The notes below the pieces were generated by a model. The model was not told the DNA's origin and did no database searches. It was given only the letters and a program-made list of their open reading frames with translations. Positions 2,961 through 22,459 of a DNA stretch of 46,968 bases are shown here, in pieces. Each line of letters opens with the position of its first letter. Positions within the stretch are counted from its first letter, which is position 1. Both the position numbers and the translations under genes were made by a program. The stretch spans positions 1 through 46,968 of the forward strand of contig JAAZZH010000008.1 of assembly GCA_014239265.1 (NCBI GenBank), in the 5' to 3' direction. Source of the stretch: Actinomycetota bacterium. GTDB taxonomy: Bacteria; Actinomycetota; Acidimicrobiia; Actinomarinales; Actinomarinaceae.

Positions 2961-2994
2961 AAAAAACATAGGTAGGCCGAAGCCTACCCATGTT
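2961..2994 (-). terminator. Intrinsic terminator / attenuator inside the ABC transporter operon
   Basis: On the minus strand, 12 nt after the stop codon of the binding-protein gene, GGTAGGC and GCCTACC form a 7-bp stem capped by a TTCG tetraloop. The stem extends beyond one mismatch by AACAT/ATGTT and is followed by a run of six T. This is a textbook Rho-independent terminator and the only convincing one I found in the window. Because the permease gene begins 25 nt further on, without another obvious promoter, it probably acts as a partial terminator giving more binding-protein mRNA than permease mRNA. The role is inference; the structure is read directly. Confidence 0.85.
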
Positions 2995-3006
2995 CAAGTT
3001 ATATTA

Positions 3007-4998
3007 TTAGCTCTGTACTTTTACAAGTGAAGCGTAACCGCCACCTGTTCCAGTTAATCCGTCTAATACGTCTGTGAATGGAAATTCTACAGTATCTTTA
3101 TATACCTCTAGTGTAGGTACGTTGAATAATACCAAATATGGCATTTCTTCAAATAAAATAGCTTCCATTTTTTGCGATAGGACAATAGCATCACTTATTG
3201 TTTTAGCAGCTTGGAATTCAGCATCTAATGCGTCAAATTCTGCGTTGTTAAAACCAGGTGTGTTATAGCCACCTTCGCATGTGTCGTTCTTGGAATTGAA
3301 GAAATCTCCAGGGTGATTAGGGAATGCACTTAAACCCCAACCAAGCATGTAGAAATACCAATCCTCACAAGTTTCTGGTGTGAACACCTTGTCAACGATA
3401 ACGTTGAAACCAGTAGGTCTCGCTGTTACGTCAAGTCCAAGTTGTTGCATCCAATCAGCAATAAATAAGGACATTGTTGATCTCAATGGATCATAACCAG
3501 CACCTGGTGCATAAAGCAACATGTCTGATGGAGGTGTTTCTCCTCCTGGTCCTTTAATTCCTGTTGGAGCGACTGCTCTTTCAGCACCACCAGCATGGGA
3601 ACCCCAGTCTGAAGCTGTCCAACCACCTGCTTGAAGAATTTCAACTGATTTGTTGAATCTTTCTTCTGCATTAAGGCCAGCACAATCAGCAAGGACACCT
3701 GTTACAGGTGCAACCCAGGCTGTTAACGCTTCAGGCATTTGACCATCCATATTTACAGCAACACCTTGAAGAATGTTGTTTAACACGAATTCTTTATCAG
3801 AAATACATGCAACAGCTTGTCTAAAAGATTTGTCGCTTCCAGGGAAAACCCTAGTGTTGAATGCCATGTATCGCATACCGTTACCTAAGTTGGAAACAGT
3901 TTCGACACCTGGAACTCTGGATAATTGGTCAAAAAGATTTCTCTTAACGCCTAGTGGGTTAAGAACGAAATCAACTTCGCCATTTTGGAATGCAAGATAA
4001 GCAGCATCTTGATCACCATATAATGTGAACTCAACAGTTCCTACATAAGGTCCTGCTGTGTATGAGAATGAATCGCCAGTTGTATCACCAAATGAATTGT
4101 TGATTGCTGGAGCTTTTCCATTATCCCATTCGACTGTGGTACCACTCTTATAAATTGTGGTAGTTCCACCATCCCACATTGTATTAGCATCATATGTCCA
4201 TGTGTAAAAAGCACCTTGTTCTACTTTGTTATAGACAAATGCGCTAGCTACTGGAGCGTCTGCTCCCGAGGCTGCTAATAGGGTTTCTCTGTCAGTAGCA
4301 TATTGCGCCCAATAACTTTCTGGAAGTATTGGTGCTTGTGCAATTTGATACTGCCATGAAGCTAACCCGGCATCAAAGTTTAGAGTTATCTCTACAGTGT
4401 AAGCATCACTAGCAACGAGGGTTAAAATACCCTGTGCATATCCCTCAGCAGCTGAGTCTGTTCCACTACCTTGTGGGTAGTTTGTTTCCCAGTTACTTAA
4501 GAGGCCAAGATCTTTAGCGGTATTATATGTAAATACCATATCGTTGGCTGTGATAGCTGAACCATCACTCCACTCATAACCTTCAGTTATAGGAACACTA
4601 TAAGTCCATGTTCCGTCACCGTTATCAGTTGAGGCTTCGACAAGTTCGTCTGCGATTCCTGTAACTAACTGATAGTTAGGATATGAAATAGAGAATAATG
4701 ATACAGCTTGTCCGGACATCACGTATTGTGTCCATACATCTGTTTCTGTATCAAGATAATTCCAGTAATTTTGTGTTTGTGGATCTGAGAAGATCGCCAT
4801 CTTATAAACACCATCAGGTCCTGATGGAGCTGCTTCTTCAGCTGCCGCAGCAGTTGTAGCAGGAGCTTCAGTTGTTTCTGTCTCTTCGACAGCAACTTCT
4901 TCTTCTGCTGTGTCGCCTCCGCAGGCAACAACAACTAATGCAAAAACTGAGAAAAGTAAGATAAGGCGCCAACTTCTGGATCCTTTGAAATTACTCAA
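3007..4998 (-). CDS. ABC transporter substrate-binding lipoprotein, peptide/nickel family (SBP family 5)
   Basis: This is the extracytoplasmic solute-binding protein of the peptide-type ABC system. I start it at a TTG preceded by AAAGGAG with 4 nt spacing, rather than at the ATG ten codons upstream. That gives 663 aa beginning SNFKGSRSW, a hydrophobic signal segment (LILLFSVFALVVV) and the lipobox VVAC with the lipidated cysteine at about residue 25. An acidic, Thr/Ala-rich linker follows, then the SBP_bac_5 domain. The region around YEWSDGSAITANDMVFT is the conserved beta-strand pattern of this family, and GEVDFVLNP fits too. Leading the operon and followed by an attenuating terminator, it should be the most abundant component. 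Ligand unknown. Confidence 0.92.
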   Translation of the reverse strand: MSNFKGSRSWRLILLFSVFALVVVACGGDTAEEEVAVEETETTEAPATTAAAAEEAAPSGPDGVYKMAIFSDPQTQNYWNYLDTETDVWTQYVMSGQAVSLFSISYPNYQLVTGIADELVEASTDNGDGTWTYSVPITEGYEWSDGSAITANDMVFTYNTAKDLGLLSNWETNYPQGSGTDSAAEGYAQGILTLVASDAYTVEITLNFDAGLASWQYQIAQAPILPESYWAQYATDRETLLAASGADAPVASAFVYNKVEQGAFYTWTYDANTMWDGGTTTIYKSGTTVEWDNGKAPAINNSFGDTTGDSFSYTAGPYVGTVEFTLYGDQDAAYLAFQNGEVDFVLNPLGVKRNLFDQLSRVPGVETVSNLGNGMRYMAFNTRVFPGSDKSFRQAVACISDKEFVLNNILQGVAVNMDGQMPEALTAWVAPVTGVLADCAGLNAEERFNKSVEILQAGGWTASDWGSHAGGAERAVAPTGIKGPGGETPPSDMLLYAPGAGYDPLRSTMSLFIADWMQQLGLDVTARPTGFNVIVDKVFTPETCEDWYFYMLGWGLSAFPNHPGDFFNSKNDTCEGGYNTPGFNNAEFDALDAEFQAAKTISDAIVLSQKMEAILFEEMPYLVLFNVPTLEVYKDTVEFPFTDVLDGLTGTGGGYASLVKVQS

Positions 4999-5020
4999 TT
5001 TTTCTCCTTTTGTATACAAA

Positions 5021-5040
5021 ATCCACACGTAAATGTGGAT
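5021..5040 (-). promoter_or_regulatory. Inverted repeat in the 5' leader of the ABC transporter operon
   Basis: ATCCACA and TGTGGAT form a perfect 7-bp inverted repeat around a 6-nt spacer, and outside it TATAC/GTATA can extend the pairing. If the promoter proposed just upstream is right, the repeat begins at the transcription start and ends before the ribosome binding site. It could be a 5' mRNA hairpin that protects the transcript, or an operator for a dimeric repressor. Both are inferences from position. Confidence 0.45.
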
Positions 5041-5046
5041 GTATTA

Positions 5047-5074
5047 ATAGTAGATATATATATTGACATTTCAA
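5047..5074 (-). promoter_or_regulatory. Candidate promoter of the ABC transporter operon
   Basis: On the minus strand TTGAAA (-35) and TACTAT (-10) are separated by 16 nt, placing transcription start near position 5040. The surrounding 180-bp gap between der and the lipoprotein gene is very AT-rich and otherwise holds nothing recognisable. Only partial matches to consensus are present, so this is tentative. Confidence 0.35.
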
Positions 5075-5208
5075 TCTAAAATTTAAATTTTATTAAAAAT
5101 ATGTTGTTTTCATGTTATATGACTAAGTTGATTAAAAACTGAAATAACCGCAATATAAGATAAAAGCCAAACAGGAATACTCCTATTTTGAAGCCAAAAT
5201 TTTCCATT

Positions 5209-6513
5209 TTAATTTTTAAATTTTATATTTAAACATATATTGTCAAAATTATATGTGTCACGAAGTCTATTATCTATAAAGTTCTGATAATTAATTGGGA
5301 CTCTACCACTTAATATAAAACTGAACGAAGGAGGGTAAACATCGTACTGTGTCACATATTTTAGCTTCGCTCTCCTACCTCTAAACGGATGAGGTGGTTT
5401 TTTTGTCCATATTTCTCTGAAAAGTATATTTAATTCATGGGTTGTAATACGAGTTGAAAGCTGTTTCTGTAAATCATAAATCACCGTATTAAGATTTTTT
5501 ACACCTTTGCCATTAAGTGCTGAAATTCTTAAGATCTTTAACCATGAATATTTCTTTAGCAATGAAGTAATGTTTTTGTTTATAAAAAGTTTCTCATCTT
5601 CTTTTAGAAGATCCCACTTATTCATAATTAATATTGGTGTTACTTTATTTTCAATGCATTCACTAATTAACCTCATATCTTCAAAATTAATTCCCTGTTT
5701 TGCATCTACAACGAGAAAAGCTATTACAGAATTCTCTAATTGACCAACGGCTAAAGATGATGCATATCTATCTATCTGGTTTTTTTGTTTTTTACGTGGC
5801 ACCCCAGCGGTATCAATAATGTTATAAGAATCTGAATCGAATTTGATTGTCTCTTCTAATTTATCTCGGGTCGTACCCGAAATATTTGAAACAATTGCTC
5901 TTTCCTCATTCAAGAGCTTATTAAATAATGTAGACTTACCCGAGTTAGGCTTTCCAATAATTGCTATAGACTTATAGGTATTTTTAATTGAATCCGTATT
6001 AGATGACATGCTTTTTGTAATTGACTCCATTAATTCTTCAGTACCCAATTTATGAATAGATGAGACGTAATAGTCTGAATCGTAAATGTATTTATACAGC
6101 TCTGTATTCAATTCAAACTTTTTAAAATTTTCACATTTATTAAATACTGTTATGACTTTTTGTTCTTTATTTATATTTTTTTGCAAAAGACTGTGTATTT
6201 TATCTAATCCAGAATAATTTGTTGTGTGTACGTCAATTACAAACATGATTAACTTTGCATCATTAAGATACGCTTTTAGCTTATTTTGAAACTTTTCATT
6301 TAATTCATCTGGGTCTTCTAGATAACCAGGTAAATCAGAAATATTAAAAACTTTATCATTTCTCTTAATTGTTGAAGAGACTTTATCTCGTGTTGTATTT
6401 GGCGTAGAACCAATTATTGATACTTTTTTTCTGGACAACGCATTTACTAATGAAGACTTACCGGAGTTTGGTAATCCAACTAATAAAACTTCATCAATAT
6501 TGTTTTTAGTCAT
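5209..6513 (-). CDS. der: Ribosome biogenesis GTPase Der (EngA)
   Basis: Der is a double-GTPase needed for assembly of the 50S ribosomal subunit. Two tandem G domains are visible: the first with P-loop GLPNSGKS (13-20) and DLPG (60-63), the second with GKPNSGKST (187-195), DTAG (234-237) and MNKWD. The C-terminal KH-like domain, with HELNILFREIWTKKPPHP, is typical. At 434 aa the length is normal. In the first domain the G4 motif reads NKCE rather than NKxD. The gene is divergent from ispH with only 26 bp between, and the start codon has a TATATT box exactly 6 nt upstream and no ribosome binding site, so the mRNA is probably leaderless. Confidence 0.97.
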   Translation of the reverse strand: MTKNNIDEVLLVGLPNSGKSSLVNALSRKKVSIIGSTPNTTRDKVSSTIKRNDKVFNISDLPGYLEDPDELNEKFQNKLKAYLNDAKLIMFVIDVHTTNYSGLDKIHSLLQKNINKEQKVITVFNKCENFKKFELNTELYKYIYDSDYYVSSIHKLGTEELMESITKSMSSNTDSIKNTYKSIAIIGKPNSGKSTLFNKLLNEERAIVSNISGTTRDKLEETIKFDSDSYNIIDTAGVPRKKQKNQIDRYASSLAVGQLENSVIAFLVVDAKQGINFEDMRLISECIENKVTPILIMNKWDLLKEDEKLFINKNITSLLKKYSWLKILRISALNGKGVKNLNTVIYDLQKQLSTRITTHELNILFREIWTKKPPHPFRGRRAKLKYVTQYDVYPPSFSFILSGRVPINYQNFIDNRLRDTYNFDNICLNIKFKN

Positions 6514-6519
6514 AATTTA

Positions 6520-6525
6520 AATATA
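6520..6525 (-). promoter_or_regulatory. -10 box of der, leaderless-type
   Basis: TATATT is followed by TAAATT (6 nt) and then the der ATG. The spacing places transcription start on the start codon. The box is separated by only 2 bp from the opposite-facing ispH -10 box. Confidence 0.6.
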
Positions 6526-6527
6526 GC

Positions 6528-6533
6528 TATCCT
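6528..6533 (+). promoter_or_regulatory. -10 box of ispH, leaderless-type
   Basis: TATCCT is followed by ACTGAT (6 nt) and then the ispH ATG, with no Shine-Dalgarno sequence possible in that space. The -35 regions of ispH and der must lie inside each other's coding sequence. Confidence 0.6.
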
Positions 6534-6539
6534 ACTGAT

Positions 6540-7571
6540 ATGGTAAACAATCTTTATTTAGTTACTCCAAGGGGCTTTTGTGCTGGTGTTGAGATGGCGA
6601 TTAAAGCATTGACATGGATGTTGAAAATATATGATGAAACTATTTATTGCTATCACGAAATTGTTCATAATGACTGGATTGTAGAAAGATTCAAAACTAA
6701 AAACATTAAATTCATTGAATCACCTGAAGAACTTCCAAAAAACGCCATTGTAATGCTTTCGGCCCATGGAACTTCGCCAAAAATAGAAAATGAATTTAAT
6801 TCTCTCTCATCCATTCAAGTTAATGCGGTATGTCCACTAGTAACTAAGGTACATCATGAGGCAAAGAAATTTAGTGAAGCAGGGCAACAAATTATTTATG
6901 TAGGTCATAAAAATCATGATGAAGCGCTCGGAGCTTTAGGCGTTGCACCAGACTCAATGTTTTTAGTAGAGAAGGAGGATGATTTAGAAGAAATAAACAT
7001 ATCCAGTGATAAAGTAGCATTACTTGCTCAAACAACCTTAGCTATGTCAGAATGGAAACCAATAATGGAATCTGCCCAAAAAAAATATCCCAATTTAAAT
7101 ATGCCAAGAAAGAGCGATCTCTGTTATGCAACAACAAACCGCCAAGAAGCTGTAATCAACGTTTCAAGTATGGTTGATATAGTCTTAGTTGTAGGTTCAG
7201 ATACATCAAGTAATACTAAGGCGCTTGTATCAACAATAAAAAACTTAGGTAAAGAAAGTTACCGAGTGAACACAACTGAAGAAATAGATAATTTAGACTT
7301 AAAAGATAAAAATGTTGCTGTGACAGCTGGAGCTTCTGCACCTGATCATATAGTTCAAGAAATTATCAATAAACTTCAACCAAACGAAACAATATATTTT
7401 GAAAATACGAATGAAACAGAATATTTTCCGCTTCCTAAAGAGCTAAGGTCAAGCATTACAACAGTAAGTAATTTTTTACTGGCATTATTTCCAGAGAATA
7501 AAGTGGAGCCCGTAAGAAGTGTTAATAAAGATAAGCAATGGTCTGCTACAGAAGCTTTAACTTCTCTTTAA
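6540..7571 (+). CDS. ispH: 4-hydroxy-3-methylbut-2-enyl diphosphate reductase IspH
   Basis: IspH is the last enzyme of the MEP isoprenoid pathway, reducing HMBPP to IPP and DMAPP with a [4Fe-4S] cluster. The three conserved cluster cysteines are visible at C14 (RGFCAGV), C98 (NAVCPLV) and C195 (SDLCYATTNRQ), and SAHGT carries an active-site histidine. The length, 343 aa, is slightly longer than E. coli IspH, with a short C-terminal tail. It is the only plus-strand gene between der and cmk, interrupting a neighbourhood where cmk and der are usually adjacent, and its end overlaps the end of the convergent cmk by 26 bp. Start is leaderless (see upstream -10 box). Confidence 0.97.
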   Translation: MVNNLYLVTPRGFCAGVEMAIKALTWMLKIYDETIYCYHEIVHNDWIVERFKTKNIKFIESPEELPKNAIVMLSAHGTSPKIENEFNSLSSIQVNAVCPLVTKVHHEAKKFSEAGQQIIYVGHKNHDEALGALGVAPDSMFLVEKEDDLEEINISSDKVALLAQTTLAMSEWKPIMESAQKKYPNLNMPRKSDLCYATTNRQEAVINVSSMVDIVLVVGSDTSSNTKALVSTIKNLGKESYRVNTTEEIDNLDLKDKNVAVTAGASAPDHIVQEIINKLQPNETIYFENTNETEYFPLPKELRSSITTVSNFLLALFPENKVEPVRSVNKDKQWSATEALTSL

Positions 7572-8160
7572 CCAACTCAAGAACTTCATCCATATTTATA
7601 TCAGAATTATCAATATAAAGTGCATCGTCGGGAATTACTAAGGGTGATTCTGCTCTATTTTTATCATTATCATCCCTTTTCAATAAATCTTCTTTTGTCT
7701 CAGAATCGTTAGATTGCTTTAATCTTCTTTTTGACCTTACTTCAATGTCTGCATCAAGATAGATTTTTAAATCAGCATTTGGAAAGACTATAGATCCCAT
7801 ATCTCTACCTTCAATAATTAAACCATTTGAAAGTTTTTTGGATAAATTAGTTAGGGATTCTGAAACAATTTGTCTGACTTCTTTTATTTTTGCAATTTCA
7901 GAACTTTTAGAATTGATATTTTTTATATACAAATCAGAATCAGAATAAGAATAACTATTTAAAGTAATTTGTAATTCCTCGTTAATTTCTATTTGTAAAT
8001 TGCTAGTGTCAGAAGTTGAGTGATCAATGAAGTATTTAGCTATAATTCTGTATAGTTTTCCACTTGAAAAAAAATTTGAATTATATTCTTGTGCCAAAAG
8101 ACTTCCCAATGATGTCTTACCAACACCTGAGGGTCCATCAATAGTTACGATATAATTCAT
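7546..8160 (-). CDS. cmk: Cytidylate kinase
   Basis: Cmk phosphorylates CMP and dCMP to the diphosphates in the cytoplasm. The P-loop GPSGVGKT (9-16), the CMP-binding region EGRDMGSIVFP and the LID-type stretch SKRRLKQS are typical. Length of 204 aa is slightly short for the family (220-230). It is the last gene of the pyrG-xerD-HD-scpA-scpB-rluB-cmk run, 6 nt downstream of rluB, and its 3' end overlaps convergent ispH by 26 bp. CTP synthase heads the same run, so the operon contains two pyrimidine nucleotide enzymes. Confidence 0.96.
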   Translation of the reverse strand: MNYIVTIDGPSGVGKTSLGSLLAQEYNSNFFSSGKLYRIIAKYFIDHSTSDTSNLQIEINEELQITLNSYSYSDSDLYIKNINSKSSEIAKIKEVRQIVSESLTNLSKKLSNGLIIEGRDMGSIVFPNADLKIYLDADIEVRSKRRLKQSNDSETKEDLLKRDDNDKNRAESPLVIPDDALYIDNSDINMDEVLELVKEKLKLL

Positions 8161-8166
8161 ACGTAA

Positions 8167-8817
8167 CTATGTTAATTTAATTTTTTTTAACTGACCAATT
8201 TTCATTTTACCAATTTTAAATTTGTCAACTTGAATCCTTTTAAGGTTTTTAATTGGAATGTTGTTAACATCAAAAATCCTTCGTATTTCACGATTTTTAC
8301 CAGTTTTAAGAACTATTTCATAAGTTAATTTTTTAATCTCAGTTAGTTTATGAATTTTTAATTGTTCGTCATTATCTTTTATAGATTTTCTAAATGTTTC
8401 AAAATTAATTTCTTTACTTGTAACAACAATGTATTTTTTAGAAATATTACTTTTTGGATGCGAGTATTTATTTAGCCACACGCCATCTGTGCTTAGCAGC
8501 ATTAAGCCTTCTGAGTCCTTATCCAGACGACCACCAAATTTTAATGATTTATTGTGGATCAAGTCGTAGATAATTTTCGACTCCCCTTGTCTTTTGTGAG
8601 ATGATACATATCCATAGGGCTTATAGAAAAGAAAATATTCATGTTCTTTTATGGCTTGGATAACTTGATTCTTATGCATGACTATATCGTCATCATCTAC
8701 AAGGTCACCATGATTAGCTATAACCCCGTTTATCTTGATAGATTTATTCTCTACGAGAATATCACTATCTCTACGTGAAACATTAAGATTCAATGCAAGA
8801 AACCGATTAATTCTCAA
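8167..8817 (-). CDS. rluB: 23S rRNA pseudouridine synthase, RluB/RsuA family
   Basis: This RNA-modifying enzyme has an N-terminal S4 RNA-binding domain (RINRFLALNLNVSRRDSD) and a RsuA/RluB-type catalytic domain with the motif GRLDKDSEGLMLLS, where the aspartate after GRL is the nucleophile. I start it at a TTG that begins MRINRFLA, 4 nt after the scpB stop and preceded by AAGAAGAG, giving 216 aa; the ORF track starts 12 codons earlier inside scpB. The family assignment is firm. Naming it RluB rather than another RsuA-family enzyme rests on the scpA-scpB-rluB context known in Gram-positive bacteria. Confidence 0.93.
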   Translation of the reverse strand: MRINRFLALNLNVSRRDSDILVENKSIKINGVIANHGDLVDDDDIVMHKNQVIQAIKEHEYFLFYKPYGYVSSHKRQGESKIIYDLIHNKSLKFGGRLDKDSEGLMLLSTDGVWLNKYSHPKSNISKKYIVVTSKEINFETFRKSIKDNDEQLKIHKLTEIKKLTYEIVLKTGKNREIRRIFDVNNIPIKNLKRIQVDKFKIGKMKIGQLKKIKLT

Positions 8818-8821
8818 TAAT

Positions 8822-9346
8822 TTACTCTTCTTCTGCTTTATTAAAATACTCACCGATGGTCGGCAGATTATTTATTGAAGATAAATCTAGTTTTTGTAAA
8901 AACAATTCTGTCGTTGTATACAGAATTGGATTACCAGGAACGTCGAGTTCGCCACCTTTTTCTATGAGACCCCTTGATTCTAAAGTTTTAATGGAGGACT
9001 CAGATTCAACCCCTCTAATTTCTGAAATTTTCATTTTTGTAACTGGCTGTTCGTAAGCAATTATTGCAAGAGTCTCTAACGCTGGCGTGGAAAGACCTCT
9101 TAGAATTGCTGGAGGTTTTACATCACCAAGTAGCTCTGAAATTTCTGATTTAGTCACAATGTCAGATTTAAAATCATTATATTTTATAAAAAAACCAATG
9201 TCTGCATTTTCAAAGTTGGCATTAATTTCATCAATTAAGTTTATAAGTTCCGAATTATTTATTGTTAGTAGTTTTTCGAAATATTCGTGTTCTACCGGTC
9301 CATCACTTACAAGTAGTACTGCAGATATAACTTTTTTGCTATTCAT
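8822..9346 (-). CDS. scpB: Segregation and condensation protein B
   Basis: ScpB is the winged-helix partner of ScpA and SMC in the bacterial condensin complex. The motif LSTPALETLAIIAYEQPVTK with IRGVESES is the hallmark of the family. The correct start is most likely the ATG giving MNSKKVISAVLLVSDGP (174 aa), which overlaps the end of scpA by 8 bp; the ORF track extends 25 codons further into scpA. Neighbours are scpA upstream and rluB downstream, the usual arrangement. Confidence 0.95.
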   Translation of the reverse strand: MNSKKVISAVLLVSDGPVEHEYFEKLLTINNSELINLIDEINANFENADIGFFIKYNDFKSDIVTKSEISELLGDVKPPAILRGLSTPALETLAIIAYEQPVTKMKISEIRGVESESSIKTLESRGLIEKGGELDVPGNPILYTTTELFLQKLDLSSINNLPTIGEYFNKAEEE

Positions 9347-10046
9347 AGTTTTTCTCAATAATAATCTCTTTATTAACATTTGTTTGCTCAGCTTTAATAA
9401 AGCCCCATCGAACAGCTTCAAGTAACGCTAGGAAAAATGCTACAGCCTCTTGTGAAGAATTTACTGAGGAGACTAATTCTTCGAATGTTGTATTTAATCT
9501 TTTATCAACAAGTTTTAATAAATCATCTATTGCAACTTGTAAATCAGGGAGTTCTTTGTCAATATGTGAAAATCCCTGTATTGTTTTATATCTACTGAAA
9601 ACTTCATTTGCTGTTTCTGTAAATTTAGTAATGTCAATGTTGTAACGAATTTCGGGCTTTACTGATAATGAACTTGTTTGATAATATTTAAATGCGGGTA
9701 CTTCACGTTCGGTTTGTTTAACTTTTATAGCTAGAGCCAGTCCAACTTCAGTAAAAGCTTTAAATTGGAGCAATCTGGCAAATGCAAGATCTTTGTCTTT
9801 TATTAGTTCAACTTCATCAAGCCAATCTACTTCCTCATCTTGGGGAAGTAATCTTTTTGCTTTTAACTCAAATAGTGATGCACCAAGTAGAACAAACTCG
9901 GCATAATTGTCTATATCTTCTTTTAATGATTTATTTTGGAAACTCTGAAAGATCATTGTGAGATTATTAGCAATTTGTGTTTCTGTATTTGATGTATATT
10001 CAACAAGAAGACTTTTTAAATTTTCTATTACTTGTATATTTTCCAT
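9339..10046 (-). CDS. scpA: Segregation and condensation protein A
   Basis: ScpA is the kleisin subunit that bridges SMC heads. The sequence shows the family's N-terminal helix region (YAEFVLLGASLFELKAKRLLP) and the C-terminal winged helix (AVAFFLALLEAVRWGFIKAEQ). At 235 aa it is near the lower end of normal. The usual opening motif DLLLHLI is not clear, so the N-terminus is divergent. Start ATG shares one base with the stop of the HD-domain gene (TAATG), pointing to translational coupling. Confidence 0.94.
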   Translation of the reverse strand: MENIQVIENLKSLLVEYTSNTETQIANNLTMIFQSFQNKSLKEDIDNYAEFVLLGASLFELKAKRLLPQDEEVDWLDEVELIKDKDLAFARLLQFKAFTEVGLALAIKVKQTEREVPAFKYYQTSSLSVKPEIRYNIDITKFTETANEVFSRYKTIQGFSHIDKELPDLQVAIDDLLKLVDKRLNTTFEELVSSVNSSQEAVAFFLALLEAVRWGFIKAEQTNVNKEIIIEKNYE

Positions 10047-10486
10047 TAGTAATCAGTTTTATCTAGTATTTGATGCTTATTTTGAAGAAGATTTGTTTTA
10101 TATTGATCAACTAAAGAATCTATATCCCCAATTTGAGACAATACTTCAAGTCCTATTAATTCATGATCGAGATATTTCTTAGATTTATATGAAGAAACTA
10201 TTTTTAGGTCAGAAAGTATTCTTAAGAGCCATGAATAATGCCCAGTATTTTTACCAATATCATGGAGTAGGGAAAGTTGTAATAATTCTAAATCATCAGA
10301 GAATCTTAGGGTTCTATTCATAACCTCAATAGAATGATGTCTATCAGCTTTGTTTAATAACCAGTATTGTTTTATTAATTGATTATTTTTAAGTGTATTT
10401 GAGATTACCAATTGTTCATCTATAGAAAGATGCTTATAAAAAAGAAATCTTATGGCTCTTTTTGATTTTAAATAAATTTTATTCAT
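10046..10486 (-). CDS. Small HD-domain protein, predicted metal-dependent phosphohydrolase
   Basis: A 146-aa protein with the HD-superfamily pattern: a histidine pair at residues 50-51, the motif LLHDIGK (HD at 75-76, K79), H83, and a later DHE (107-109). HD proteins bind divalent metals and hydrolyse phosphate esters of nucleotides, but the substrate cannot be deduced. It starts by an ATGA overlap with the xerD stop and ends by a TAATG overlap with scpA, so it is embedded in the chromosome-maintenance operon at the position where many actinobacteria carry a parA-like gene. A role linked to segregation or nucleotide signalling is speculation. Confidence 0.85.
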   Translation of the reverse strand: MNKIYLKSKRAIRFLFYKHLSIDEQLVISNTLKNNQLIKQYWLLNKADRHHSIEVMNRTLRFSDDLELLQLSLLHDIGKNTGHYSWLLRILSDLKIVSSYKSKKYLDHELIGLEVLSQIGDIDSLVDQYKTNLLQNKHQILDKTDY

Positions 10487-11307
10487 GCTCTTGGGTGACT
10501 TTCGTTAAAAACTTCATTAAGAAATTCTTTTGTTAACTTAGTATAGATTTGCGTTGTGGATACAGATGAATGTCCTAAATATTCTTGAAGTGTTCGAAGG
10601 TCACAACCAGCTTCAAGCATATGAGTTGCAGCGCTATGCCTTAATGTATGGGGATGGATATTTAGAGTTGTTGAGGTTTTAAGAGCTGTTGATTTAATTA
10701 TCCTAAAAATAGCGGTACGTTCTAGCGGATTGTCGGTACGGGAAATAAACAAAAAAGGATTATTTGATATATCTTTTACAAGCTTTAGGTCGAGATAAGA
10801 TAGTAAATTAATTTTAAGTTTGGAACCAATCGGGACAATTCGTTGTTTTGAACCTTTTCCGGTTAATTGAATATAATCTTCATCAAAATCAATATCGGCA
10901 ATTTTAACATCACATAATTCACTAACACGACATCCGGTTGAATACATAAAATCGATTATGGCTTTATTTCTCTTACTTATAAAGGTTTCCTGATCATGAA
11001 AATTTATTAATTGTTCAATTTGTGTAATAGAAAGTGTTTCAGGAAGTCTTTGACCAGACTTAATTGTTACATCTTCAAGAATAACTGTTTTAGTATCTTC
11101 CCTAAAGTTATACCATTTTACAAACTGTCTTAATACGGAAACTTTTCTTTTTTTTGTATTAGGACTGTACTCTTTTGTAGAAATTAACTTTATTAATTTG
11201 TTGAGTGCATCACTAGATATATTTGTTACTAAGTTTTCTTTGAATAAGTTTAAAAGATCAGTTCTATATGCTTCAACTGAATTTTTTGATAATCCTTTTG
11301 AGTACAA
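10483..11307 (-). CDS. xerD: Tyrosine recombinase XerD
   Basis: XerD resolves chromosome dimers at dif sites together with XerC. The catalytic residues are present: Arg in TGCRVSEL, Lys in TGKGSKQR, His-x-x-Arg in HTLRHSAATHM, His in LGHSS, and the nucleophilic Tyr in TTQIYTK. The coordinates use the only standard start codon in frame, a TTG, giving 274 aa. Homology-like sequence (IKYLLDDYQDYL) continues 16 codons upstream of it, with only ATT codons available as starts, one of which overlaps the pyrG stop. The true protein is therefore probably about 290 aa, from 11355. Position between pyrG and scpA supports XerD over XerC. Confidence 0.92.
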   Translation of the reverse strand: MYSKGLSKNSVEAYRTDLLNLFKENLVTNISSDALNKLIKLISTKEYSPNTKKRKVSVLRQFVKWYNFREDTKTVILEDVTIKSGQRLPETLSITQIEQLINFHDQETFISKRNKAIIDFMYSTGCRVSELCDVKIADIDFDEDYIQLTGKGSKQRIVPIGSKLKINLLSYLDLKLVKDISNNPFLFISRTDNPLERTAIFRIIKSTALKTSTTLNIHPHTLRHSAATHMLEAGCDLRTLQEYLGHSSVSTTQIYTKLTKEFLNEVFNESHPRA

Positions 11308-11350
11308 TAAATAATCTTGGTAATCGTCAAGTAAGTATTTAATAGAATTA

Positions 11351-16081: not shown

Positions 16082-16957
16082 CTAAATTTTTAGCTGTATG
16101 GAAGCTTTTTTAACAAATATCTCAGCTGGGCCCTTATCGAAATAATCACCATCAATTTCTATTGATTGACGTGATAAAAGCTGTATCTCTCCACTTCTTT
16201 TTAAAAGAACATCTGGTTCTGTTAAATGTAAACCCTTCTTTGCTAGAAAAAATAATTTCATAGCTTTCTTTTTTGTTACTTTAAAAATTTGAATATTAAG
16301 TAGACCGTCTTGAAGACTGGATTTAGGTGATATATTCCAACCACCTCCAAAAAACTGACCATTACATACAGTAATAACGAAGGCATCGGCATTAAATTCA
16401 TAATTGTGTGTTTTAATAGACATCATTCCAGACCTAGCAGGAAGTAGCTTTAGCCAGAAGCTAATCGGATATCTAAATCTTCTAAAAATCTTTGGTAATT
16501 TTTCACTCATTTCAACTGTATCAGCAAGAAAACCAAAGTTTAAAATATTAACAAAATGTCTTTCTTTTTCGGAAGTGGACACAACTGCTGTGTCAATAAG
16601 GTAGGTAGAATCTCCTTTGAGGTGTTCTATTGCAGTTTCTATATTTTGAGGGATTGCAAAAGTTCTTAAAAAATCAGAACCACTACCTGATGGAAGACAT
16701 CCTACAATAGGACGGTCTAGACCTTTTCTTAGAAGACTATCTATCAAAGAATTAATAGTGCCATCTCCCCCAATTGCACAGTAATTATATTTTTTACTGT
16801 CCTTATGTTGTTCTATTATTTGATCAATTTCTGAAACATTAGAAGTCATAAAGATTTTGGATTTCAAATTATGCTTTTCAAAAAGTGTGGTCAAGTAGCT
16901 TTCGGTTAATTTTTTACCTCTAGAATTTAGGTTATAAACTACAACATATTCTTTCAT
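16082..16957 (-). CDS. Diacylglycerol kinase-family lipid kinase (YegS/DgkB-like)
   Basis: This enzyme belongs to the DAGK catalytic family that phosphorylates diacylglycerol or related lipids with ATP. GGDGT at 63-67 binds nucleotide, and the GCLPSGSGSDFLRTF segment is the second conserved motif. The C-terminal beta domain includes GGGWNISPKSSLQDGLLNI, which is typical. 291 aa is the normal size. It overlaps the upstream helicase gene by 4 bp (ATGA). The exact lipid substrate is not determinable. Confidence 0.92.
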   Translation of the reverse strand: MKEYVVVYNLNSRGKKLTESYLTTLFEKHNLKSKIFMTSNVSEIDQIIEQHKDSKKYNYCAIGGDGTINSLIDSLLRKGLDRPIVGCLPSGSGSDFLRTFAIPQNIETAIEHLKGDSTYLIDTAVVSTSEKERHFVNILNFGFLADTVEMSEKLPKIFRRFRYPISFWLKLLPARSGMMSIKTHNYEFNADAFVITVCNGQFFGGGWNISPKSSLQDGLLNIQIFKVTKKKAMKLFFLAKKGLHLTEPDVLLKRSGEIQLLSRQSIEIDGDYFDKGPAEIFVKKASIQLKI

Positions 16958-18825
16958 CGCATAGATTTCTGGATTAACTCATCATTAAAAATATCAGTAA
17001 TCATTTTAAATTCCTTAATACGATATATATTAAAGAGTTTAGTTGAGAGTTCAGAAGCTTCCTTACCAGCACGAATAAAATCACCGATACTGATATTGAA
17101 TTTAGATAATACTGATTCAACGTCTTCAGATTGCAAATATTCATTAAAAATACTGAACCAGCCAATTTCAATTGAAGTTATTTTTTTGACCCCTGCAAAT
17201 GATTCCATCTTATTAATCTTTTCCTCCATAATTTGAAATTTAATGAATGTATCCACATACAACTCATTAAGGGACAAGTCATGCCTGGTTGTGGATAAAC
17301 CAGAGCATACAAGCATCAAGTAGAAATTCATATCTTTATCAAAATCACTCTCTAGTAATTCAAGTCCAACGATTAGATTATCCCTATAGGTTTCGGTTAA
17401 AACCATGGATTTCTTATTGTCATTCTTGAAATTTAACAACTCAAGGACTTCGAGCTTGGATGTAAATGTATTTTGAAGCTTTTTGATATTGAAGTTATTT
17501 TGATAAGAAAAGAAACTTTTTTCAAGGAGTTCTATGGCTTCCTTTAGTGAGTATTTGCTTAACATATTCAATATTGAAGAATACGAGACCGAATATGCAG
17601 AATTTAAATTACTTGATTTGAGGGTAAATAAGTTGTTATACCAAAAATTTTCAATATTTCTGTCATAATTTATAAATGCAAATCCCTTTGTGTCAATGCC
17701 TCTCCTTCCTGCTCTCCCAGTCAATTGTAGAAATTCTGATTGATTGATTAATCGTGTTTTTATTCCATCGTATTTGTAAAGTCTATCGATAACAATAGAT
17801 TTCGCAGGTAGGTTCAGACCAAGTGATAGTGTTTCTGTGGCAAATAAATATTTTATATATCTATTTAGAAATAAAAATTCAATAAATTCTTTTACAATAG
17901 GTGCGAGCCCTGCATGATGATATCCGATTCCTCTTACCCACATCCAGAGTAGTTCATCCAAATTTAAAAGATCATATTGAGTTGAATCTAGAGAACTAAA
18001 AACATCATTAAAAACATCTTTAATCTCATTTGCTTTTTTAATTTTATTTCTATTTGTCGCTGCCTGCCTAGCCTTTGTTTCAACTCTATCTCTTGAAAAA
18101 TAAAAAAATATTGAAGGTGTAAGGTTTTTACTTTCGAGGTAGTCAAGTTGAAAGCCTAGATGAGGTCTCTTGTACTTTCTATATTGTTTTTCAAATTTAA
18201 AGATTTTATTATTACGCTTATCTTTTGAAGATTTAATTATTTTTAATTGCTCACTGTGAGGGTTTAAACCAACTAAGGATATTTCTAGTGGGACGGGCCT
18301 TATATTGGAGTACACCAATGATGTTTTTCCTCTTAATGAAACTATCCAGTTATGGAATTCTTCTTTATTTCTAATAGTGGCTGATAGAAAAAGAAACTTG
18401 ATGTTTTTTGGGGCATGAATAATTATTTCTTCCCAAGTTGTGCCTCGCTCAGAATCAGATAGATAGTGAACTTCATCAAGGACTATGAGTCCAATTTTTT
18501 TTAATCTTTTGTCATCTGAATAAATCATATTTCTTAATATTTCTGTAGTGGCAACAATTAGATTTGAATCTGGGCTGATGGTCCTGTCTCCTGTGAGCAA
18601 TCCAGTATCAATGTTCAAATTTGTGAAATCATTAAATTTTTGATTCGATAATGCTTTAATGGGTGTCGTATAAATTACATTTTGGTTCTGGTTAGTATAT
18701 TTTTCAATAGCTTTTTCGGCTATATAGGTTTTTCCTGATCCCGTAGGTGCAACGACTAATACATTAAAATCTTTATTAATGGAGTCAATTGCCTCAACCT
18801 GAAATTTATCTAAATTAAAATTCAC
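16954..18825 (-). CDS. helY: DEAD/DEAH-box RNA helicase, HelY/Ski2 family, shortened
   Basis: This is an ATP-dependent RNA helicase of the Ski2/Mtr4-like group. Motifs in order: APTGSGKT (26-33), the TPIKALSNQ stretch, DEVH (117-120), SAT in FLSATIRN, and QLTGRAGRRG. Position directly after tatC matches helY of mycobacteria, which supports the symbol. At 623 aa it is much shorter than the roughly 900 aa of mycobacterial HelY; the C-terminus, with IGDFIRAGKEASEL, still resembles the DSHCT domain, so the loss seems to be in the middle insertion region. Start is GTG, overlapping tatC by 11 bp. Confidence 0.9.
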   Translation of the reverse strand: MNFNLDKFQVEAIDSINKDFNVLVVAPTGSGKTYIAEKAIEKYTNQNQNVIYTTPIKALSNQKFNDFTNLNIDTGLLTGDRTISPDSNLIVATTEILRNMIYSDDKRLKKIGLIVLDEVHYLSDSERGTTWEEIIIHAPKNIKFLFLSATIRNKEEFHNWIVSLRGKTSLVYSNIRPVPLEISLVGLNPHSEQLKIIKSSKDKRNNKIFKFEKQYRKYKRPHLGFQLDYLESKNLTPSIFFYFSRDRVETKARQAATNRNKIKKANEIKDVFNDVFSSLDSTQYDLLNLDELLWMWVRGIGYHHAGLAPIVKEFIEFLFLNRYIKYLFATETLSLGLNLPAKSIVIDRLYKYDGIKTRLINQSEFLQLTGRAGRRGIDTKGFAFINYDRNIENFWYNNLFTLKSSNLNSAYSVSYSSILNMLSKYSLKEAIELLEKSFFSYQNNFNIKKLQNTFTSKLEVLELLNFKNDNKKSMVLTETYRDNLIVGLELLESDFDKDMNFYLMLVCSGLSTTRHDLSLNELYVDTFIKFQIMEEKINKMESFAGVKKITSIEIGWFSIFNEYLQSEDVESVLSKFNISIGDFIRAGKEASELSTKLFNIYRIKEFKMITDIFNDELIQKSMR

Positions 18826-19516
18826 GATTACTTTTTTTATGAATAAAAATCATTATTTCTATGAGTAAATACATAGGCAGAGTGAAGATAAAAAGCGAAA
18901 TAGGATCACCCGTTGGTGTTATTACTGCTGAAAAAATAAGTATGACTATAAACATTTCAGCCCGTTTATTGGTTAGGCTCTTTACGTTTATTATTCCTTT
19001 GTTAAGGAGAAAAAGCATGATTAATGGTAATTGAAATGAAACTCCAAATAACAAAGAAATTCTCGTTATGAATTGATAATAGTTTTGAGATCTTAGAATA
19101 ATTTCATTCTCATTAAATGAAAGGAGGAACTCAATACCGACATGAGCAATGCTTAGTGAAGAAAATATACCTGAAAAAAATAAGAGAGTAAAGAAGATGA
19201 AATATAAAGAAAAGCTTAATGTTCTTATCTCTAAAGCTGGTTTAACGAAATAACCTAATATTAAAAGTATTAATGGAAATGTAATAATTATGGATATCCA
19301 AAAAGTATTCTGTAGCTTTACTTGGAAACCTTCATAGATTGTTAATGCGAATATATTAGAGTCATCATATCCAGCATTTATGAGAGGTTCTAATAAAATA
19401 TCACCAAAAAATGAGTACTGGTTATATACAAATATTGCAACTATCCCAACTAAAGTAAAAGAAAATAATATTCTGTTATTTAACTCTTGAAGGTGCTCCA
19501 TGAATGGTTTTTTCAT
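18815..19516 (-). CDS. tatC: Twin-arginine translocase subunit TatC
   Basis: TatC is the six-helix receptor of the Tat pathway that recognises twin-arginine signal peptides. The N-terminus FMEHLQELNNRILFS is the conserved cytoplasmic segment, and hydrophobic segments consistent with six helices follow, including ITPTGDPISLFIFTLP. I start at the ATG giving MKKPFMEHL because GAGGAGG stands 7 nt before it; the ORF track begins seven codons earlier, inside the preceding small gene. 233 aa is a normal length. It is embedded in the pafB-pafC-tatA-tatC-helY arrangement. Confidence 0.95.
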   Translation of the reverse strand: MKKPFMEHLQELNNRILFSFTLVGIVAIFVYNQYSFFGDILLEPLINAGYDDSNIFALTIYEGFQVKLQNTFWISIIITFPLILLILGYFVKPALEIRTLSFSLYFIFFTLLFFSGIFSSLSIAHVGIEFLLSFNENEIILRSQNYYQFITRISLLFGVSFQLPLIMLFLLNKGIINVKSLTNKRAEMFIVILIFSAVITPTGDPISLFIFTLPMYLLIEIMIFIHKKSNREF

Positions 19517-19517
19517 A

Positions 19518-19697
19518 TTATTCCTCCTCATTTTCATCTAGCCAGATCCAATTTTCATCAATTGAATTATCTCCAATTATTTGGCGACTTTGCCCATTTT
19601 GGAATTTAGAAATTTTATTAAAGTAATATAAAATTTTGCTTTTATCAAATATACCAAGAGAGATTAGGACTATAACTAGTAATTCAATAATGCTCAT
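19518..19697 (-). CDS. Small TatA/TatB-like protein, 59 aa, divergent
   Basis: This ORF is too short for the ORF track. It starts by an ATGA overlap with pafC and stops 1 nt before the tatC ATG; its last codons encode the tatC ribosome binding site. The product has one N-terminal hydrophobic helix (ELLVIVLISLGIF) followed by an amphipathic, lysine-containing stretch (KILYYFNKISKFQNG) and an acidic tail, the layout of TatA/TatB. The usual FG hinge reads FD, and the LPELAR-type amphipathic start is not conserved. The position, exactly where tatA lies in actinobacteria, is the main support. Glu at residue 5 is more TatB-like than TatA-like. Confidence 0.7.
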   Translation of the reverse strand: MSIIELLVIVLISLGIFDKSKILYYFNKISKFQNGQSRQIIGDNSIDENWIWLDENEEE

Positions 19698-20515
19698 GAT
19701 AAAAACTCAGCAATCAATTTATTTTTTCTTTTTTCAATTTCAACTCTAACGGAGTTTGGAGCAATAACATTTTGAGAATCTATATTCTTTATGAAATGCT
19801 CTACAGCAATTTCCTCTGAACGGAAATGCTGTTGATGTCTTTTTAATGCTAGGTCTTGATAGGTAACTGAAATCTCATTATCATTTTTTGAAAACCTTTC
19901 TTTAAGATTTTTTTCCTCTGGAATGTTAACAATTCTATCTATTAAAAAACTTTTTATTTTGTCGTCTTCATAGTCATACGCTTCAAGAACATCTCCATCA
20001 TTTGTAATATTGAAAGATAATGGCTTAATTTTATAGATATTTGAAATATTGTGCCCTAATTTAATGTACTCTATATACAGCTCATCGGATACAAACACTC
20101 TATTAAAGTCAAGTTTGGCACTGCTTGCTGCACTTTGGTGAGATTTAAAATAATTATTTAATGTGTTATATAGGTAAATAAGATCTGACTTATTATCAAA
20201 TAACTTTTCAACATTTATCTTAGGATTATTTAGAACCGTATATATTTTAAATAAGTCTAAATCAGTAATTGTAGGGATACTTGATAGAGATTCATTGAAC
20301 TCGAAGGTAATGACATTCTTTTCCAAATTTACTTCAAAGTTTATAAAGCTGTCGCCATCTGAAGAGTACACTTCCGATAAGATTGTTAATGAATACAACA
20401 GTTTGTCGGAGCTTAAATTAACATTTTCTGCTAAGTCTTCTAAGTTAAATGATCTTTCTTTTTTAATGAGTGAAAGAATGTGAATTATATTACCTAGGTT
20501 TATTTTAAATTCCAT
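19694..20515 (-). CDS. pafC: WYL-domain transcriptional regulator PafC
   Basis: PafC forms with PafB the heterodimeric activator of the RecA-independent DNA-damage response known from mycobacteria. The 273-aa protein starts with a helix-turn-helix-like region (LEDLAENVNLSSDKLLYSLTIL) and continues into a WYL-type domain. The WYL motif itself is weak (IYKIKPLSFNI). Identification rests on the tandem arrangement with PafB and the tat genes downstream. It overlaps pafB by 11 bp and the TatA-like gene by 4 bp. Confidence 0.85.
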   Translation of the reverse strand: MEFKINLGNIIHILSLIKKERSFNLEDLAENVNLSSDKLLYSLTILSEVYSSDGDSFINFEVNLEKNVITFEFNESLSSIPTITDLDLFKIYTVLNNPKINVEKLFDNKSDLIYLYNTLNNYFKSHQSAASSAKLDFNRVFVSDELYIEYIKLGHNISNIYKIKPLSFNITNDGDVLEAYDYEDDKIKSFLIDRIVNIPEEKNLKERFSKNDNEISVTYQDLALKRHQQHFRSEEIAVEHFIKNIDSQNVIAPNSVRVEIEKRKNKLIAEFLS

Positions 20516-21338
20516 TTATTACTCTCTTTAGTGCCTCTTTGTCTTGGTTATTTATATTTAGTAATTTTGGGTCAACCAACAATAAATACTTGATTAATCC
20601 ATGATGATCATTCGTTTTTAATTTTATGGTAATATTTTCTTCATTTTCCTCCGAAGAGACTTCAGTAAAATTGAAAATCCTACTGTGCACTCTATGTAAG
20701 TCGTTATCTGAAATTATCTCGACCGTAATAAAAGTTGACATGTTTTCCCATGAAAAGTTAAATTCTGAAATATTTTTAGTGTGAAGATTCTCTTTGTTAC
20801 CTATTTTTAGATTTTCTATAGTGTTTATTTTAAATGTTTTAACAATATTTCCATCATCTGCTCCCAGGTACCATATTCCAGCATGGAACCTCAGGCCTAA
20901 AGGATATACTTTTCTTAGTTTGTCATTGTAAATAAATGAAACTCTTCTCCGCTCCTTTATGGCTGTATTGAGTATTGGTATAACTTTTAAATCTTTATTG
21001 AGTTGTAAATATGGTGATAAGTATTTCTTAATAACAGAATATGTGTTGATAAACCTTTCAATGTCAAATCCAGATTTACTTTGTAGGTCTAAAATTATAT
21101 GTGTTCCTTTAAGCTTATAACCATCCTCAACACTCCATTTGTCATTTTCATATTCTAAATTGAACCCGACCTCTTTTAGGAGTGCTTTATCTCTCTCAAA
21201 AGATCTTTTGTACGCTGCATCATTCAAATTACGATACTCGGGTATATTGTCTTTTATGTAATTACTATCGAGATTGAATGTGTTTGAGCTATCGAAAAGA
21301 GCGATTAACTTTAAACACCTTTTAAATACATTTTTCAT
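20505..21338 (-). CDS. pafB: WYL-domain transcriptional regulator PafB
   Basis: PafB is the partner of PafC in sensing DNA damage, probably through ligands of the WYL domain. The 277-aa sequence has an N-terminal winged-helix region (YKRSFERDKALLKEVGF) and a WYL domain with RRRVSFIYNDKLRKVYPLGLRFHAGIWYLGA, a good match to the family pattern. It is the first gene of a long minus-strand operon ending with the HAD phosphatase. In actinobacteria with proteasomes pafA precedes it; here the next gene is a divergent ferredoxin. No ribosome binding site is seen before the ATG. Confidence 0.88.
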   Translation of the reverse strand: MKNVFKRCLKLIALFDSSNTFNLDSNYIKDNIPEYRNLNDAAYKRSFERDKALLKEVGFNLEYENDKWSVEDGYKLKGTHIILDLQSKSGFDIERFINTYSVIKKYLSPYLQLNKDLKVIPILNTAIKERRRVSFIYNDKLRKVYPLGLRFHAGIWYLGADDGNIVKTFKINTIENLKIGNKENLHTKNISEFNFSWENMSTFITVEIISDNDLHRVHSRIFNFTEVSSEENEENITIKLKTNDHHGLIKYLLLVDPKLLNINNQDKEALKRVINGI

Positions 21339-21425
21339 AAATAATTAGTTTTAGCTTTATAAGTATCTTACAAAATATTAGATATAAATTTTATATTCGA
21401 AGATTTGTGTAAATCTATAACAAGG

Positions 21426-21431
21426 TAAAAT
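21426..21431 (+). promoter_or_regulatory. -10 box of the ferredoxin gene, leaderless-type
   Basis: TAAAAT is followed by ACTACTT (7 nt) and the ATG. A TTGTGT 15 nt upstream of the box is a possible, short-spaced -35 element. The 100-bp gap between pafB and this gene contains nothing else I recognise. Confidence 0.55.
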
Positions 21432-21438
21432 ACTACTT

Positions 21439-21684
21439 ATGAAAGTATGGATTGATCAAGATTTATGTACCGGTGATGGCCTTTGTGAAGAGATCGCACC
21501 AGATGTATTTGTCGGATTAGATGATGGCCTTTTTTATGTTAAAGAGGGTGATAAAGTTTTTTCAGAAGAAAATGGGAATGTCGGTGGTGCTGAAGGCCTA
21601 GCTGTTGTTCCTAAAGGTCAAGAAGATGCAGTTGTTGAATCGGCAGAGGAATGTCCTGGCGAATGCATAATGATTGAACCATAA
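21439..21684 (+). CDS. Ferredoxin with CxxDxxC cluster motif
   Basis: An 81-aa single-cluster ferredoxin. Ligand candidates are C10, D13 and C16 (in CTGDGLC) and C72 (in CPGEC), with an additional C76. An aspartate in place of the second cysteine is known from Pyrococcus furiosus ferredoxin, where the cluster interconverts between [3Fe-4S] and [4Fe-4S]. The sequence around APDVF is typical of actinobacterial ferredoxins, several of which sit beside the proteasome/paf genes. Redox partners are unknown; cytochrome P450s or oxygenases are usual, but none is in this window. Its stop is 1 nt from the stop of convergent trmI. Confidence 0.92.
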   Translation: MKVWIDQDLCTGDGLCEEIAPDVFVGLDDGLFYVKEGDKVFSEENGNVGGAEGLAVVPKGQEDAVVESAEECPGECIMIEP

Positions 21685-21685
21685 A

Positions 21686-22459
21686 TCATAAAATATACCT
21701 ACCACTCACTATAAAACCCGTGTGACCCACCATTGTGTGCTTAGGTCTTGAAATATTACCTCGTATCGTCCACTCTCTCTCCATTGTCTCTTTAATCTCA
21801 ACATCTTTAAAGCTATTGTCTTGCAAAACTTCAGCTAACTTAGACACTTGAGATATTGAGGGTAAATATGAAACCCAGTAAAGATTACTATTTATATGAT
21901 TATTTTCGAAGAATACCCATGGTTCTGGGACATCTGTAATAACAGTATCAAATTTAAAAGGAACAGTATCAATTTTAAAATCAGACAGATCTGTATTAAT
22001 AAATTGAATATCATTTATAAAATCAGATGAATAATTAGATAAATATCTTGATATTGTCTTTTTAGCTCGATATTGATTTTTTTTACTGATATCTAAAGAA
22101 TAAAATTCAGAATTATTACCTAAAATTGAGGCTAAAAAAAGAGTTAATGCTCCAGACCCAGTACCAATCTCCAAAACTTTACTATTTGCATTTATATTCC
22201 CTGAAATGAGTATTGAACCCACATCTTTGGGATATATTATTTGAGGCCCTCTCTTCATAAGAAGAATAAATTCTTTATAAGATGGAACATAAATTGTAAA
22301 TATTTTTCCGGTTGATGATTCAATTTGAGTAGGAAGGGATTTTATTTTATCAAATTCTATTTTGCCATCATTAGTTATGAATTCTTTGCCTTTTGTTATT
22401 ACGCTTAAGTACTTTTTTGATTCAGATGAAATTATTACGAGTCTGTTGTCAATTTCCAC
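21686..22459 (-). CDS. trmI: tRNA (adenine-58-N1)-methyltransferase TrmI
   Basis: TrmI methylates A58 in the T-loop of tRNAs using SAM. The Rossmann motif EIGTGSGALTLFLAS (about 96-110) and the preceding RGPQIIYPKDVGSIL are the hallmarks of this family. 257 aa is slightly shorter than usual. It begins with GTG and has a TAATAT box 6 nt upstream, inside the end of the preceding 29-aa ORF, so it can be transcribed both from the upstream operon and from its own leaderless promoter. In proteasome-bearing actinobacteria trmI lies next to mpa; here it faces the ferredoxin. Confidence 0.93.
   Translation of the reverse strand: MEIDNRLVIISSESKKYLSVITKGKEFITNDGKIEFDKIKSLPTQIESSTGKIFTIYVPSYKEFILLMKRGPQIIYPKDVGSILISGNINANSKVLEIGTGSGALTLFLASILGNNSEFYSLDISKKNQYRAKKTISRYLSNYSSDFINDIQFINTDLSDFKIDTVPFKFDTVITDVPEPWVFFENNHINSNLYWVSYLPSISQVSKLAEVLQDNSFKDVEIKETMEREWTIRGNISRPKHTMVGHTGFIVSGRYIL

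Follow-up and report, generated by a model that had tools for sequence, protein, structure and literature searches.

The pafBC locus of the window (the whole stretch of 46,968 nucleotides that was analyzed) is very probably an ancestral actinobacterial Pup-proteasome locus from which the module was lost stepwise and in which PafBC was retained under selection. The window belongs to Candidatus Actinomarina, class Acidimicrobiia, and represents contig C88 (GC 32%) of the MAG G000, which comprises 1.05 Mb in 96 contigs and is 84% complete. Judged by PafB, the window comes closest, among named records, to uncultured Candidatus Actinomarinales PACB-20200310-m3 (97% identical) and Candidatus Actinomarina AG-313-L19 (95% identical). 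The genomes used for comparison were MAGs and SAGs, 42 of them from the order and 24 from elsewhere in the class; 1.0975 Mb were read of the near-complete congener G064. Loci of the Actinomarina type also occur under the record names Bacteroidetes bacterium (L131) and Euryarchaeota archaeon (L139), which are misbinned or mislabelled contigs.

On the minus strand the window encodes, in this order, an AI-2E-family transporter, a 97-aa protein, trmI, a ferredoxin on the opposite strand, pafB, pafC, a TatA-shaped ORF, tatC, helY and a lipid kinase. The left anchor of the ancestral locus is trmI (21686-22459, minus strand), a tRNA methyltransferase gene of the GCD14 family (Pfam GCD14, E 4e-16). 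It is followed by the 4Fe-4S ferredoxin gene (21439-21684, plus strand; Fer4_15, E 5e-15), oriented against its neighbors. The remaining genes are all located on the minus strand: pafB with its wHTH and WYL domains (20505-21338; Pfam WYL, E 3e-10), pafC (19694-20515), which overlaps pafB by 11 bp, the 59-codon ORF (19518-19697), which overlaps the ends of both pafC and tatC, tatC itself (18815-19537; Pfam TatC, E 2e-38) and a gene for a helY-like superfamily 2 helicase (16954-18825; Pfam DEAD, E 2e-28), whose place is conserved in the order and the class. Gene calls and Pfam thus confirmed the original prediction that these genes lie side by side, although pafC and the tatA-like gene had no Pfam match; the designation of the latter is based on its TatA-like shape. 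The divergent intergenic junction between pafB and the ferredoxin gene (21339-21438) measures exactly 100 bp, as had been stated, and harbors none of mpa, dop, pup, prcB, prcA and pafA, for which it would be the former site. Another 29 loci of the order show the same neighbors in identical arrangement, which rules out an assembly artefact as the source of the short junction. In the order loci measured this gap spans 86-113 bp, and only G001 carries an insert there, consisting of prcBA. The flanking genes are therefore found in ancestral order and place around a site without the six genes of a functional locus, as expected of a derived remnant.

The ancestral state can be read from the rest of the class, where two or three copies of Pup ligases and both 20S subunits were found in 23 of 24 genomes. 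In locus L015 of G053 (reverse complement), trmI (2142-2948) and a ferredoxin gene on the other strand (2976-3275) are followed by mpa (3376-5094, C-terminal TTGQYL), dop (5091-6581), pup (6585-6779, C-terminal GGQ), prcB (6776-7561), prcA (7558-8226) and pafA (8552-9907), and pafB starts at 9955. The full order is also present in the named records L161, L180 and L185, and in nearly all of the more distant named loci (L151-L194) Pup-proteasome genes are located upstream of pafB. The ancestor of the Acidimicrobiia would thus have possessed trmI, a ferredoxin gene on the opposite strand, mpa, dop, pup, prcB, prcA, pafA, pafB, pafC, tatA, tatC and helY. The gene order originally assumed has the same flanks, but it placed the ferredoxin between prcA and pafA, whereas in Acidimicrobiia the gene is found on the opposite strand, with trmI on one side and mpa on the other (L014, L015, L161, L180 and L185). 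The comparison with proteasome-bearing relatives that had been proposed with it locates the module between the same ferredoxin gene and pafB in the sampled class loci.

As bacterial proteasomes are generally of horizontal origin (PMC8223512), the lineage might never have had the module, with class relatives or G001 having acquired it instead. This would, however, require independent insertions at identical sites, which are far less likely than loss: the class relatives, and G001 in the case of prcBA, share the site, the order and the neighbors, and bpa has disappeared from a separate co-linear site. Such an origin is extremely improbable, and the presence of PafA/Dop and PrcBA in 23 of 24 class relatives and of prcBA at the junction in G001 argues against it.

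Several loci outside the order deviate from the common arrangement. In G044 (L014, 12664-14757) pafB and pafC are apparently fused into one ORF of 697 codons, as in Arthrobacter. The class relative G051, which is rated 100% complete, harbors Bpa, and neither Pup ligase nor 20S subunits were found in it; it was set aside as a second natural loss, as the retention of Bpa makes an assembly gap likelier. In Acidipropionibacterium timonense (L195; NZ_LR027558.1, about 7758-11346) an ABC permease replaces the Pup-proteasome genes upstream of pafB-pafC-tatC-helY, possibly representing a second, independent lineage with pafBC apart from the module.

Within the order, profile searches detected neither Pup nor the Mpa OB domain in any of the 42 genomes. 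The Pup ligase (PafA/Dop) profile had no match in the 35 order genomes covered by this search; G064 and a 585-kb contig of G065 were checked with phmmer. Subunits of the 20S proteasome family were found in one of 42 order genomes, G001, and prcBA is missing from every other assembled order locus. In the near-complete G064 none of Dop, PafA, Pup, PrcA, PrcB and Bpa was found, and the Mpa query retrieved only two AAA proteins resembling FtsH and ClpX. Bpa was likewise not found in the four congeners tested (G000, G064, G006 and G061). Thus the 20S core and Bpa, encoded at two sites, are both missing in every congener tested for both, G001 has both, and the tagging system is missing in all. The incompleteness and fragmentation of the window's own MAG would allow for a module that is present but was missed or relocated in the genome. 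However, the window's locus is intact and nevertheless devoid of module genes, the order-wide searches were negative even in a near-complete congener, and identical searches succeeded in nearly all class relatives. A missed module is already refuted by the congener set and deserves practically no credence. A search for the module elsewhere in the genome, suggested as a check of the prediction, accordingly gave no result in the window's genome or its congeners (profile searches, 35 order genomes for the Pup ligase and 42 for the other profiles).

The exception, G001 (MAG casp15-mb.97, 87% complete), whose name suggests an origin in the Caspian Sea, harbors prcB-prcA between the ferredoxin gene and pafB, at the position of the window's 100-bp junction. 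The gene order trmI-ferredoxin-prcB-prcA-pafB-pafC-tatC-helY is located on a 104-kb contig, of which about 50 kb are co-linear with G064. From Thr40 onward its PrcB aligns with the mature PrcB chains of Rhodococcus and Mycobacterium, and the counterparts of the catalytic residues Thr1, Asp17 and Lys33 are intact. A second contig, also co-linear with G064, encodes a Bpa of 142 aa that ends in RPGQYL and thus carries the GQYL motif; in G064 the gene is cleanly missing from this site, with a gap of about 94 bp in its place. Contamination as the source of prcBA and bpa was rejected on the basis of the co-linearity of both contigs. Pup, PafA, Dop and Mpa were not found in G001 at its 87% completeness, and the ancestral site, which is contiguous, carries none of their genes. 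With PrcA, a PrcB of intact active site and a Bpa with GQYL, but no pupylation genes or Mpa found, G001 presumably has an active proteasome. It is rather probable that this represents a natural 20S core for which the ATP-independent Bpa ring is the sole opener, and a stage preceding the loss in the window's lineage, where prcBA and bpa would have been lost as one functional unit. This half-way stage is known from one MAG.

Based on these data, mpa, dop, pup and pafA would have been lost first, on the Actinomarina stem, leaving the 20S core and Bpa in the state kept by G001. In a second step prcBA and the unlinked bpa would both have been lost, at least twice on the inferred tree and once in the window's lineage. 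The clean loss of the whole module that had been proposed is thereby supported as a loss, but G001 indicates that it proceeded stepwise, Pup, PafA, Dop and Mpa going before the 20S core and Bpa. The number of losses is derived from a tree that was built from eight flanking proteins and rooted on nine genomes of the class, in which G001 is sister to one sub-clade (support 95) and the window belongs to the other. A position of G001 as the first branch was rejected (AU p = 0.02), in a tree whose outgroup branch is long. Taken at face value, the tree implies that the 20S core was lost at least twice; given the long outgroup branch at the root, a single 20S loss is possible.

The similar short junction in all other order genomes would also agree with the removal of the whole module by one deletion in the common ancestor of these genomes, followed by a regain of prcBA and bpa in G001 by transfer. 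This would require two homologous insertions at ancestral sites in G001, and it does not account for the alignment between the prcB promoter region of G001 and the sequence that precedes pafB in the sister clade of G001. A single deletion with later regain is therefore very improbable, and stepwise loss is preferred. The alignment was obtained with the ferredoxin-pafB region of the clade-A congeners G064 and G005 (scores 72 and 81, maxima of shuffled sequences 60 and 62), whereas the window's own 100-bp junction did not align significantly with the G001 prcB promoter. The region upstream of pafB in G064 and G005 is thus possibly a deletion scar. In both genomes a short ORF begins at the former prcB start position.

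In contrast to the module, pafB is present in all 30 intact order loci examined. Twelve congeners lack a full pafB; eleven of these also lack the adjoining helY, of which just the 3' part is present in the twelfth (G029), pointing to assembly gaps. In the PDB a PafB profile matched no chains other than those of PafBC (7p5x, 9fnd and 6sj9), and the printed alignment shows that the recognition helix R.FERDK and the residues W195 and Y196 are conserved in Actinomarina. PafC was not identified by sequence searches against Pfam, NCBIfam and the PDB. The assignment of the ORF at 19694-20515 as a putative PafC is based on synteny, a weak co-linear hhalign profile match between the window's protein and class PafC (E 0.009) and Foldseek, which returned the PafC chain of M. 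smegmatis PafBC (9fnd_Y, E 2.9e-8) as best match to a low-confidence model (pLDDT 64). The pair therefore has the features of PafBC, namely a wHTH helix and a WYL domain in PafB and, directly downstream, a diverged second protein whose fold is taken from that model.

In M. smegmatis PafB, mutants have shown that R211/R214, R181, R204, R208 and Y196 matter for ssDNA binding (PMC11804915). The Sm-loop arginines R211 and R214 are replaced in every Actinomarina PafB aligned, including that of G001, and kept in class relatives, and therefore damage sensing may differ in Actinomarina. At the other positions R181 is kept (lysine in G001), R208 is changed to lysine and Y196 is kept, while in PafC the arginine equivalent to R204 is invariant. 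From the sequences it looks as if promoter reading was conserved, whereas the binding of the signal changed on the genus stem.

The promoters predicted to be read by PafBC were conserved as well. In 29 of 29 genomes the region upstream of recA contains an SOS box (GAACAnnTGTTC) followed by [AT]TGTCN-N11-T[AT]4T, whereas permuted boxes were found in 0-3 of 29. This element, given as TGTC-N12-TTTAAT, is of the PafBC (RecA-NDp) type, and the layout resembles that of mycobacterial recA, which is under dual control of LexA and PafBC via an SOS box and the RecA-NDp promoter (PMC5656591, PMC8223512). In a strict scan, diverged genomes were found to have kept the motif at recA, at umuC and at an operon of unknown proteins (three genes in each of two comparisons), against one match across 22 permuted-box comparisons. 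A looser scan added a LysM gene divergent from lexA. In mycobacteria, a damage-induced gene is reportedly located beside lexA in such a divergent position. The wider, genome-wide regulon scan is small, and with a lenient -10 threshold it yielded as many matches for permuted boxes as for TGTC; since it fails to separate the two, the main promoter evidence is limited to the strict scan and recA. LexA and RecA were each found in 39 of 42 order genomes. The operon of unknown proteins (G000:C11 99545-100800; G064:C1 99944-101100) has a short leaderless ORF in front in addition to its conserved TGTC-type promoter and lies near a PD-(D/E)XK nuclease gene; its genes are candidates for damage induction.

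As PafBC is kept in 30 intact loci and PafBC-type elements are present at recA, umuC and the LysM gene, it is probably still the damage activator in Actinomarina and would be functional and bind the predicted promoters. The loss of two Sm-loop arginines and the extreme divergence of PafC could instead reflect a PafBC that was kept but is no longer a DNA-damage regulator, having drifted or adopted a new signal. This is unlikely in view of the conserved promoter-reading helix, the invariant R204 equivalent in PafC and the ubiquitous recA element. A retained damage activator remains the favored interpretation: PafBC would have stayed under selection because its task, the activation of recA and repair genes upon DNA damage via the housekeeping RNA polymerase at TGTC-type promoters, needs no proteasome. 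The proposed selection of PafBC independently of the proteasome agrees with its presence in every assembled locus and with the retained recA element, and is to be understood as an argument from conservation.

Compared with known systems, the window shares flanking genes, gene order and pafBC with the Pup-proteasome loci of Mycobacterium and Acidimicrobiia, but differs in the absence of mpa, dop, pup, prcB, prcA and pafA. Like Corynebacterium glutamicum, a pupylating actinobacterium without a proteasome, it lacks prcBA; however, actinobacteria of this type retain pup, pafA, dop and the ATPase (PMC6466877, PMC8223512), which the window has also lost. G001 retains the opposite half and would therefore be the mirror image of actinobacteria with pupylation but no proteasome. 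With the Bpa/PafE-20S pathway of M. tuberculosis it shares PrcA, a PrcB with intact active site and a Bpa with GQYL, but it differs in that searches for Pup, PafA, Dop and Mpa gave nothing and Bpa is the only recognized activator, Cpa lying outside the search. With PafBC of M. smegmatis and Arthrobacter (7p5x, 9fnd, 6sj9) the window has in common the adjacent wHTH-WYL pair and the recognition helix, and Actinomarina the TGTC-type recA promoter beside an SOS box. Differences are the lack of R211/R214 equivalents, a PafC that Pfam does not recognize and the absence of a proteasome to clear induced proteins. In the literature searched no paper on the Actinomarina proteasome was found; those that name both are surveys unrelated to the question, and papers on Actinomarinales genomes and on the sister order UBA5794 are silent on it in the passages searched.

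These abundant tiny marine bacteria, in which the whole module is gone and PafBC is kept, separate two functions that go together in mycobacteria. There, degradation of RecA and other proteins by the proteasome reportedly shuts off the PafBC response. Actinomarina must end this response by another route, and G001 makes the use of a Bpa-only proteasome a directly testable question.
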